Shown: positions 42,975 to 46,556 of the stretch, one piece after another | How positions within the stretch are numbered: position 1 is the stretch's first letter | Layout: the number at the start of each line of letters is the position of its first letter | NCBI RefSeq assembly: GCF_018866245.1 | Contig: NZ_CP076458.1 | Location: 2,542,001-2,606,000 of the forward strand | From: Novisyntrophococcus fermenticellae | Lineage (GTDB): Bacteria; Bacillota; Clostridia; Lachnospirales; Lachnospiraceae | Direction of reading: 5' to 3' | DNA: 64,000 nt | Made by a program: the position numbers and the translations under genes | Notes under the pieces: generated by a model | What the model was told of the DNA's origin: nothing | What the model saw: only the letters and a program-made list of their open reading frames with translations | Database searches by the model: none

Positions 42975-43721
42975 TTATTTATAATTCACGATTTTACCGA
43001 AGTCAGCTTTCAGAGATGCTCCCCCCACAAGCCCGCCGTCAATATCCGGCTGTGCAAACAGTTCCGCTGCATTGCCCGCATTGACGGAACCACCGTACTG
43101 AATGCGGATTTCTGCTGCTGTAGCATCATCATAGATTTCAGCAATGCATTCGCGGATGCCTCTGCAGACTTCTTCGGCCTGCTCTGTGGTGGCTGTCTTA
43201 CCTGTTCCGATGGCCCATATAGGCTCATATGCAATCACAGTAGTCTTTGCCTGATCTGCCGTCACATTCTGGAATCCAACCTTAACCTGCTGACGGATGA
43301 AATCCATCGTAACACCCTGCTCTCTCTGCTCAAGTGTCTCTCCGCAGCACATAATCGGAGTAATACCATGTTCCAGTGCCTTTAAGACTTTTTTATTCAC
43401 ATCTGCATTGGTCTCATGAAAGTATTCTCTTCTCTCCGAATGACCTAAGACTACGTATTTCACACCTGCATCCGTCAGCATATCCGGTGAAATCTCTCCG
43501 GTATATGCACCGCTCTCTTCAAAATACATATTCTCGGCACCCACCTGAATGTTTGTGCCTTTGCATGCTTCTGTTACAGGGACAATATCAATAGCAGGCA
43601 CGCAGAACACTACATCGGCTTCTTCGTTAGCTACTAATGGCTTTAATGTATTCACCAACTCCACCGCCTGGCTTGGTGTCATATTCATTTTCCAGTTTCC
43701 CGCAATAATTTTTTTCCTCAT
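42975..43721 (-). CDS. tpiA: Triose-phosphate isomerase
   Basis: 248 residues, normal length. It interconverts dihydroxyacetone phosphate and glyceraldehyde 3-phosphate. Catalytic residues are the Lys of AGNWKMN near the N-terminus, the His of [11 protein letters not shown] and the Glu of [11 protein letters not shown], followed by the flexible loop GTGKTAT; phosphate site IQYGGSVN and GLVGGASL complete the barrel. ATG at 43721 has a perfect AAGGAGG 5 nt upstream. It is the third gene of gap-pgk-tpiA, but 559 bp of palindromic repeats separate it from pgk. Confidence 0.97.
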
Positions 43722-43748
43722 ATTTTCCTCCTTTGCCAAATGCAAAAT

Positions 43749-44280
43749 AAGTGTTCGGGTAGGTTCCCCTTACTAAGCTCGATATATCTCGCTAAGTGCG
43801 GCGAACTAAGTAAACACTAGTATAGACGACATTAAATAACTTGCTGATTCAATGAGGATGATTTCGTGAGAACCGTGATGGCAAAACGTAGCCGTAGCGG
43901 GCTACGGCGAGGCTTTGACATTGCGGTTATCGCGGAATTCAGACCAGTGAAGCAGAAAGGTATTTATGATCGGCTATACTAAGGCTCGAAAACACCTCGC
44001 CAAGTGTTCGGGTAGGTTCCCCTTACTAAGCTCGATATATCTCGCTAAGTGCGGCGAACTAAGTAAACACTAAGGCTCGATAACACCTCGCCAAGTGTTC
44101 GGGTAGGTTCCCCTTACTAAGCTCGATATATCTCGCTAAGTGCGGCGAACTAAGTAAACACTAAGGCTCGAAAACACCTCGCCAAGTGTTCGGGTAGGTT
44201 CCCCTTACTAAGCTCGATATATCTCGCTAAGTGCGGCGAACTAAGTAAACACTAAGGCTCGAAAACACCTCGCCAAGTGT
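43749..44280. repeat. Array of four 91-bp palindromic repeats between pgk and tpiA
   Basis: Copies begin at 43749, 44002, 44093 and 44184, with a 6-nt fifth start at 44275. Each unit has a ~70-bp imperfect palindrome (ends AGTGTT and AACACT, centre GATATATC) plus a ~21-bp linker starting AAGGCTCG. The palindromic parts are identical in all four copies; one linker differs by one base. Copy 1 is split by a 160-bp insertion at 43820-43979. The stop codon of pgk abuts the array. Confidence 0.95.
43820..43979. mobile_element. 160-bp palindromic MITE-like element inserted in repeat copy 1
   Basis: Ends are GTATAG and CTATAC, an inverted pair, flanked by TA on both sides (43818-43819 and 43980-43981). 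The uninterrupted copies have a single TA at the same place, so a TA target was duplicated, as with IS630/Tc1-mariner-type elements. The whole element is an imperfect palindrome centred near the GTAG-CGGG-CTAC segment and can fold into one hairpin of about 75 bp. It has no coding capacity. Confidence 0.8.
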
Positions 44281-45474
44281 TTACTTATTATCAGCGGCTG
44301 CTACGCCGGGGAGTTCTTTTCCTTCCAGGAATTCAAGGGAGGCTCCGCCGCCTGTGGAGATGTGTGTCATCTTATCTCCATAGCCCAGGATGTTTATCGC
44401 TGCTGCGGAATCTCCGCCTCCGATAATTGTAACAGCGTCTGTTTCGGCAAGTGCTTTTGCAACTGCTTCGGTGCCTACAGCAAATTTAGGCATCTCAAAT
44501 GCTCCCATAGGGCCGTTCCAGACGACTGTTTTTGCTTCTTTTACGGCACCTGTAAACAATTTTACTGTCTCGGGTCCGATATCAAGGCCTTCCCAGTTAT
44601 CCGGAATATCGCCTGCATTTACAACTTGGGTGTTTGCATCATTGGAGAAGTCATCTGCGATGACAGAATCCACCGGAAGCAGCAGCTTTACGCCTTTATC
44701 TTCAGCCTTCTTTATCATTTTAACTGCATAGTCACAGTAATCTTCCTCCAGAAGCGAATTTCCTACGTTCCCGCCCATTGCCTTGCTGAACGTATAGGAC
44801 ATACCGCCTCCGATAATCAGAACATCTACCTTATCGAGCAGATTCTCAATTACAGAAAGCTTGCTGGAAACTTTTGCTCCGCCTAAGATTGCAACAAACG
44901 GACGCTCCGGATTATTTACAGCATTTCCCAGGAAATCTATTTCCTTCTGCATCAGATAGCCCACGACATTTGTCTTCATGTATTTGGTGACTCCGACATT
45001 TGAGCAGTGTGCCCTGTGTGCAGTACCAAAAGCATCATTTACGAAGACTTCTGCCAGGGAAGCCAGATCTTTACTGAATGCATCTTCATTCTTTGTCTCT
45101 TCTGCTCTGTATCTGGTGTTTTCCAGAAGTACAATATCGCCGTCTTTCATGGCCTCTGCGGCTGCCCTTGCATTTGGTCCGACAACTTCAGGATCCGCAG
45201 CAAACTTAACTTCCTGTCCAAGCAATTCACTCAAGCGAACTGCCACCGGTGCCAGAGACATCTCCGGAAGCGGCTGTCCTTTGGGTTTTCCAAGATGAGA
45301 GCAAAGAATCACCCGTCCTCCATCATTCACCAGTTTCTGAATCGTCGGAAGTGCTGCCACAAGACGGTTCTCATCTGTGATCTTTCCATCCTGCAGCGGT
45401 ACGTTAAAGTCACAGCGAACCAGGACCTTCTGTCCTTTTACATTAATATCATCTACACTTTTTTTATTTAACAT
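44281..45474 (-). CDS. pgk: Phosphoglycerate kinase
   Basis: 397 residues. It transfers phosphate from 1,3-bisphosphoglycerate to ADP. N-terminal substrate site [18 protein letters not shown], the hinge and nucleotide segments [25 protein letters not shown] and the C-terminal GGGDSAAAI and [15 protein letters not shown] are all present. ATG at 45474 has AGGAGG 7 nt upstream; an earlier in-frame start lies inside the hairpin and is unlikely. It follows gap by 68 bp with an intervening hairpin, and its stop codon touches the palindromic repeat array. Confidence 0.97.
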
Positions 45475-45497
45475 AGAATTTCCTCCTGCGCGAAATA

Positions 45498-45542: not shown

Positions 45543-46556
45543 TTATGCTAACTCTGAGAAATATTTGATCGTACGAACCATCTGGCTTGTATATGAGTTT
45601 TCATTATCATACCATGATACAACCTGTACCTGTGTTGTTCCGTTATCAAGCGGAAGAACCATAGTCTGAGTTGCATCAAACAGAGAGCCATATCTCATAC
45701 CAACGATATCGCTGGATACAATCTGATCCACATTATAGCCATAGGATTCTGTAACAGAAGCCTTCATCTTTGCGTTGATTTCGTCAACAGTTACAGTTCC
45801 GTCTACAACGGCTGTCAGAATTGTGGTAGAACCTGTCGGAGTAGGAACACGCTGTGCAGAACCAATCAGTTTTCCATTCAGTTCCGGTATAACGAGACCG
45901 ATGGCTTTTGCTGCACCTGTGCTGTTCGGAACGATATTGAGGGCTGCTGCACGGGATCTTCTTAAATCACCGTTCCTCTGAGGTCCGTCAAGTGTCATCT
46001 GGTCACCTGTATAGGCGTGAATGGTACACATAATACCTGTTTTAATCGGTGCAAGTTCGTTCAGTGCCTGTGCCATAGGAGCCAGACAGTTTGTTGTACA
46101 GGATGCTGCGGAGATAATCGTATCCTCAGGTTTCAATGTATCATGGTTTACGTTATATACAATTGTAGGAAGGTCATTTCCGGCAGGAGCAGAAATAACT
46201 ACTTTGCGGGCACCTGCATTGATATGTGCCTGTGCTTTTGCCTTGGATGTATAGAATCCTGAACACTCAAGGACTACATCTACGCCAAGTTCTCCCCATG
46301 GGCAGTTATTCGCATCAGGAAATGCATAGATTTTAATATTCTGTCCGTCCACAGTGATGGAATCCTCACCTGCTTCTACCTTATCAGCCAAAGCATATTT
46401 TCCCTGTGAAGAATCATATTTTAATAAATGAGCTAACATTGTCGGGGATGTCAAGTCGTTTATAGCCACTACTTCATATCCTTCCGCACCAAACATCTGT
46501 CTGAAAGCAAGACGTCCGATACGTCCAAAACCATTAATTGCTACTTTTACTGCCAT
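45543..46556 (-). CDS. gap: Glyceraldehyde-3-phosphate dehydrogenase
   Basis: 337 residues. NAD-dependent oxidation of glyceraldehyde 3-phosphate with phosphate. The N-terminal Rossmann motif is [16 protein letters not shown]; the catalytic Cys is in [13 protein letters not shown] and its partner His in the following HAYTGDQ region; the C-terminus has [19 protein letters not shown] specificity is suggested by the acidic residue in INDL after the second strand. GGAGG lies 9 nt before the ATG. First gene of gap-pgk-tpiA with its own promoter. Confidence 0.97.

Follow-up and report, generated by a model that had tools for sequence, protein, structure and literature searches.

A 160-nt palindromic element lying between two sugar-metabolism genes of Novisyntrophococcus fermenticellae belongs to a superfamily of mobile hairpins, present in many gut bacteria, in whose interior selection on one particular strand maintains the fold, as shown statistically by the contrasts described below. 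We consider it somewhat probable that the element is an IS630-type MITE carrying this one-strand-selected interior, likeliest as a transcribed structured RNA. It occupies positions 43820-43979 of the window (the whole stretch of 64,000 nucleotides that was analysed) and is placed on the + strand, which forms the more stable RNA hairpin.

The sequence-only reading had given the element these coordinates, ends of GTATAG and CTATAC and TA on both sides, all of which proved exact. The TA target-site duplications (43818-43819 on the left and 43980-43981 on the right, neither assigned a strand) enclose a left end, GTATAGACGACATTAAATAACTTGCT (43820-43845, + strand), and a right end that reads inward as GTATAGCCGATCATAAATACCTTTCT (43954-43979, - strand). 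The left end is of type a (GTRYA..., then AAATAAC) and resembles the IS630 ends of loci L048, L196 and L198. Between the ends lie a conserved centre, AAAACGTAGCCGTAGCGGGCTACGGCGAGGCTTTG (43883-43917, + strand), and the two sides of a tandem purine mismatch, GGAT on the 5' side (43856-43859) and AGAC on the 3' side (43941-43944), both on the + strand. The palindrome is imperfect, and at 160 nt it is too short for a transposase gene to lie within it. Folded as a single hairpin it reaches -65.8 kcal/mol against a mean of -36.7 for 200 shuffles (z -8.2, none as good), which bears out the earlier expectation that its halves pair as one hairpin.

The host DNA at this site records the insertion. On the - strand lie tpiA (triose-phosphate isomerase, 42975-43721, TIGR00419 above cut-off), pgk (phosphoglycerate kinase, 44281-45477) and gapA (type I glyceraldehyde-3-phosphate dehydrogenase, 45543-46556, TIGR01534 above cut-off); pgk matches the first 393 of the 645 positions of NF010569, a bifunctional pgk/tpi model whose whole-protein cut-off the match does not reach. 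As far as the pgk stop codon, the pgk-tpiA spacer is occupied by an array of four 91-bp tandem repeats (43749-44281, no strand assigned), the first of which is split by the element. The three intact copies each keep one TA within the empty site CACTAAGG, exactly where copy 1 is split, and the 71 nt of copy 1 to the left of the insert match an intact copy at 100%. The claim that copy 1 is interrupted where copies 2-4 have a single TA is therefore exact, and the identification as an IS630-type MITE with TA duplication is upheld by the split repeat, the single-TA empty sites and further copies at TA sites. Within the own genome a 122-base query from the array gave 4 matches, all in this spacer. 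Recovery of tpiA succeeded in 5 of 6 genomes of the genus, the own genome included, and the four others (G002-G005), whose pgk-tpiA spacers could be read, all lack the insertion, giving the empty allele that the earlier reading had proposed to look for. The spacers of G003 and G005 hold pieces like the 91-bp repeat, and those of G002 and G004 are short. The glycolytic location looks incidental.

A whole-genome search with the 160-bp sequence, as had been proposed, found other copies, again at TA sites. Twenty BLAST pieces in the 3.42-Mb single-contig genome, window copy counted, merged into 17 places: nine two-ended copies of 160, 158, 160, 85, 82, 76, 57, 51 and 48 nt, and eight fragments. 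Identity to the window copy is 98% and 94% in the two remaining long copies, and the six short forms are without much of the palindrome middle. TA stands on both sides of eight of the nine two-ended copies, the exception being L002 (TG/TA); the end-pattern scan missed L002 and L004, and both were read separately. C precedes the left TA in all nine (CTG in L002) and G follows the right TA in eight, the window copy having TAA, so that the two-ended copies sit mostly within CTAG contexts. A preference of IS630 for CTAG was reportedly described by Tenzen and Ohtsubo in 1991. Because copies that have lost their centre still carry both ends, at 48-85 nt here and at 107-108 nt in L322 and L327, the core is dispensable for movement.

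The earlier reading had further proposed a non-autonomous element mobilised by a transposase encoded elsewhere. The MITE part of this stands, and "elsewhere" applies in a stronger sense than was meant: a domain search did not find DDE_3 in the own genome (3 of 14 control genomes gave a signal) or in five further genomes of the genus (58-99% complete), and a search of the own genome with the L048 protein gave no match at E<=1e-20. L048, from the relative G008, is a complete IS630-family element of about 1.29 kb with type-a ends in a CTAG context, its interior taken up by a protein of 396 aa that has DDE_3 and HTH domains; a search of 299 genomes of the family found relatives of this protein in 18 (E<=1e-20). 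Paired type-a-like ends were present at 16 of 67 scanned transposase loci, including L048, L196, L198 and L202, with L048 and L195 representing one place and L199 and L258 apparently another; no such pair was found at the remaining 51, several of which are cut by contig ends. The MITE L095 and the IS630 element L269, which were placed in one assembly by accession prefix (CANSYK01, G327), share 21 terminal bases at one end. A full-length element with like ends was thus found in relatives, and none was found with exactly the ends of the own genome. L005 and L007, 3.2 kb apart, were considered as one long element and rejected, the second end not being found; judged by eye, no ORF in the interval resembles a transposase, and a 512-aa ORF near L007 (L075, 6374-7912) is presumably a transposase of another kind. 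For ISY100, the excerpted text of PMC2170065 reports that transposition in vitro needs transposase alone, that mini-transposons with 30 bp per end are functional and that TA is duplicated.

Relatives of the element were collected with a 29-base centre pattern, which matched at least 119 stretches from Lachnospiraceae, other Clostridia or unclassified bacteria. Among the matches listed, 96 were usable and 23 were too close to the end of their locus; of the 96, 64 were typed by an automatic caller, 38 as type a and 26 as type c, leaving 32 uncalled, many with a degenerate end. Among these listed matches, type a has IS630-like ends and a TA duplication, measures 158-160 nt in 35 of 38 cases and is flanked by CTA on the left and TAG on the right in 32 of 38, where for a call the left flank had to read TA or CA and the right flank TA or TG, the outer C and G being left free. 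Type c, again among the listed matches, has ends of GGAACTGT and variants with a TWA duplication and measures 153-158 nt in 20 of 26 cases; its flanks are TTA/TTA in 15, TAA/TAA in 9 and unequal in 2, the caller having required TWA on each side without requiring the sides to agree. The two types are connected through their arms, in that type-a profiles deprived of the centre were run against 14 type-c elements and recovered both arms in 7 (E 5e-5 to 0.19), with hits outside elements beginning at E 0.58. Type-c ends matched in 19 of 20 genomes searched and exceeded 100 per strand in two of the 20; the top genome gave 137 forward and 126 reverse matches, and 0 with the reversed pattern. An autonomous type-c element was not found: via DUF4096, 1 of 19 genomes was positive, without type-c ends, and none of 30 loci scanned after DDE_3 appeared in 9 of these 19 genomes was flanked by a type-c end pair. 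Two long type-c candidate pairs resolved into separate ends around host genes.

A covariance model, R1, was built from 34 non-redundant elements. In a family sample of one genome per genus it matched 38 of 200, and in the class 7 of 196, the own genome being counted in both; these counts are lower bounds because searches over 40 genomes apply stricter filters. The superfamily is one of Lachnospiraceae, rarer in other Clostridia, and consists of rod-like hairpins that keep close to 160 nt and have an interior common to its members despite their differing transposon ends. Several of the class-level R1 matches carry other ends, and L350-L354, from other Clostridia, have similar length and motif with end types such as GGCA...TGCC and GCCTA...TAGGC. 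At 395-433 of L242 lies a very small type-c palindrome (about 39 bp) with both ends and TWA and almost no interior, and its end sequence recurs elsewhere in G331. Plasmids gave no match to the element; viral contigs gave one, L282 (5938 bp), in which the conserved centre lies near both contig ends in identical orientation. Rfam returned 0 matches at E<=1 for window positions 43600-44400 and, for six type-c loci, a single chance-level hit (E 0.41) under the gathering score.

Pairing was analysed in 34 non-redundant elements with mutual identity below 85%. Double changes occur at 31 of 40 pairs, and 91.7% of cells are paired, a value that none of 500 shuffles reached. Controls in which the structure was slid gave 30-39% of cells paired, a comparison that is inflated because the structure was derived from the same alignment; the strand result is independent of that. 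RNA folding of every element in both senses showed the + strand to be more stable than its reverse complement in 33 of 34 elements, by a mean of 14.5 kcal/mol. The lone exception is L028 (1501-1660), an element from the same genus that has the look of one left arm joined to another, its right arm resembling a left arm reversed. A second, partly overlapping set gave 44 of 45 (exception L298), or 40 of 41 once at least four duplicates of earlier elements (L289, L302, L309, L318) are removed, and other Clostridia gave 7 of 7; these figures are weaker than 33 of 34 because most orientations came from the model, which has a preference of its own for the stable strand.

So that G.U would not be favoured, a strand-neutral test aligned the two halves with equal penalty for G.U and A.C. 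Across the 34 elements this gave 168 G.U against 101 A.C, with 27 elements favouring G.U, 2 favouring A.C and 5 even. Among 35 disjoint pairs of pattern-oriented elements, changes to G.U outnumbered those to A.C by 104 to 56 (p 1.8e-4). In 55 disjoint pairs, using pairing agreed by both partners and drawn from 112 unique elements that include model-oriented ones and overlap the first set, the counts were 155 and 58 (p 2e-11), with 39 pairs leaning to G.U, 4 to A.C and 12 even. The excess arises from both G-C pairs (85 vs 17) and A-T pairs (70 vs 41), so one-sided C-to-T mutation alone is insufficient to produce it. In type a it is present in the outer (26 vs 10) and inner (65 vs 22) parts, and in type c in the inner part (37 vs 20, p 0.03); the type-c outer part alone was not significant (21 vs 11, p 0.11). 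Running the reverse complement mirrored the asymmetry. Covariation accompanied by strand-specific wobble, which serves as a criterion for a functional structured RNA, was thus found in these elements.

The tandem purine mismatch shows conservation of a different kind. An invariant G-C pair (34/34) is adjoined by A.G in 32 of 34 elements, and the position pair between the invariant G-C and the fixed A.G holds A.G in 13, G.A in 10, G.G in 4 and others in 7 of the 34. Switching between A.G and G.A covaries (Fisher p 0.0013), and a pattern count over the 52 of 114 unique elements in which both sides were found agrees (p 1e-6, ignoring relatedness). Switching of this sort is consistent with sheared tandem G.A pairs, which occur in folded RNA and in DNA as well.

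The usual view of bacterial MITEs is that they are inert deletion derivatives, and the family could be an ordinary IS630 MITE without a function of its own, its shape kept only by template-switch (quasipalindrome) correction and recent spread. Insertion at TA within CTAG and the matching IS630 ends agree with such an origin, as do the 145 double changes from one Watson-Crick pair to another that the 55-pair contrast contains and that template switching could make; that it can generate double changes is stated in the part of PMC8794818 available to us. Maintenance at the level of DNA only would, however, be expected to leave the strands symmetrical, and both the fold comparison and the G.U counts are one-sided. 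The mismatches also persist uncorrected at fixed places (A.G as above, G.A in 25/34), and we see no feature of template switching that would favour G.T on one strand of the element over the other. We regard this account as unlikely, though deserving some weight. The one-strand fold preference suggests RNA action rather than inert parasitic DNA, and selection on a transcript would be the simplest cause of the strand asymmetry.

Selection on one strand might instead act on single-stranded DNA, for example on a hairpin exposed during replication and bound by protein. G.T and tandem G.A pairs form in DNA too, and orientation leans against the local GC skew, with 66 loci opposite and 36 the same among 102 (p 0.004), a weak replication bias. 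If + were the strand that acts as single-stranded DNA, it should lie on the lagging-strand template, and going by the same skew it probably tends not to. In the own genome, matches of at least 60 nt are 8 opposite and 1 same, and no claim is made from this since all 17 places give 10 to 7, a ratio that argues against the single-stranded reading. So does the transposase-only requirement of IS630-type cut-and-paste in vitro (PMC2170065, in the excerpt cited above). The lean against GC skew may mean that the strong hairpin is selected against where it would enter host mRNAs or lie on one of the replication strands. Taken together, a transposable structured RNA appears preferable to a single-stranded DNA hairpin, which we think decidedly unlikely.

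Orientation also bears on how a structured RNA would be made. Relative to neighbouring genes it is mixed (14 same and 20 opposite in type a, 8 and 9 in type c), counts that do not support an orientation bias, and because of this mixture many copies would not have their + strand read by neighbours. At the window copy the + strand is antisense to pgk-tpiA, whose mRNA would carry the less stable strand (-54.1 vs -65.8 kcal/mol). Either the RNA has a promoter of its own, or activity is confined to some of the copies, or selection falls on single-stranded DNA. Promoter-like sites numbered 0 in window positions 43650-44350, a weak result since 0.7 are expected by chance. At L085, L137, L150, L163, L094, L143 and others, the element abuts an ORF end, as if a TAG or TAA stop codon had been the insertion site and had been re-formed by the end of the element.

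A regulatory hairpin or terminator specific to the pgk-tpiA operon would account for the position between both genes, and one terminator-like site lies on the mRNA strand at 43908-43891; with 0.7 such sites expected by chance, copies at other places and the G002-G005 spacers free of the element, this is very improbable. An IS200/IS605 (HUH) element, REP/REPIN-like and without true target duplication, would likewise be palindromic, strand-biased and present in many copies per genome, and is hardly credible given a DDE_3 transposase between like ends and a TWA middle base that agrees on both sides in 24 of 26 listed type-c elements, agreement that implies true duplication where, for type a, flanks alone cannot tell.

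Under the reading that we prefer, a mobile element carrying a transcribed structured RNA, an IS630-family transposase acting in trans on the element ends would have inserted the element at a TA in a CTAG-like site, and the anatomy suggests that the TA was duplicated on insertion. The selected strand would then be transcribed and work as structured RNA, the likeliest reason for its selection. The candidate RNA would form a long rod, GC-rich at its cap and marked by the conserved tandem purine mismatch, and a putative partner, host or element-borne, may recognise the rod. Because neighbours and orientation vary, such an RNA would serve persistence of the element and not the adjoining genes. A tentative extension, which we would stop short of calling probable, is that the family constitutes a transposable RNA gene, a rod of about 160 nt with one strand conserved across Clostridia that borrows unrelated DNA-transposon ends. 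The lasting unit of such a gene could conceivably, and with similar reserve on our part, be the RNA and not the ends, which are IS630-like with TA in one case and of another kind with TWA duplication in the other. If true, a family with an interior that outlives its transposon ends and with one-strand selection on its base pairs would amount to a mobile structured RNA. The old question whether MITE hairpins act would then become directly testable, since the RNA and a partner could be sought in gut bacteria that can be cultured; carriers of this sort include Blautia wexlerae MSK.20.46, Coprococcus catus VPIC661 and Lachnospiraceae bacterium A4. R1 can be used for annotating these repeats.

Among open-licence papers, a weak basis for a negative, we found no description of the hairpin family, and several known systems resemble it in part. 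To our knowledge, ISY100, IS630 and Tc1-mariner elements are without a conserved internal hairpin. They share TA duplication with the element, as the excerpted account has it (PMC2170065), and unlike it are autonomous. The MRSC-65-2 motif, as the sections of PMC11109978 at hand present it, is similarly a single long covarying stem with dozens of copies per genome, and the same sections mark a mobile or repeat candidate class by inconsistent orientation to genes; its conserved UYCCGG repeat occurs here in 2 of 114 unique elements. ERIC/IRU/RU-1 and Correia/NEMIS, compared by description only, are also MITE-like repeats of 100-200 bp with TA at their ends whose transcripts form long stem loops, and they differ in their hosts (PMC2229807, in part). 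As a transposable element the hairpin is an IS630 MITE comparable to RUP of Streptococcus pneumoniae, which the same partial review text describes as intergenic, with IS630-type ends and a TA target, as 107 bp long and as having no further signature of structure or function (PMC2229807). Compared with RUP as that review describes it, the present element is distinguished by its length of about 160 nt and by strand-specific conservation across genera.
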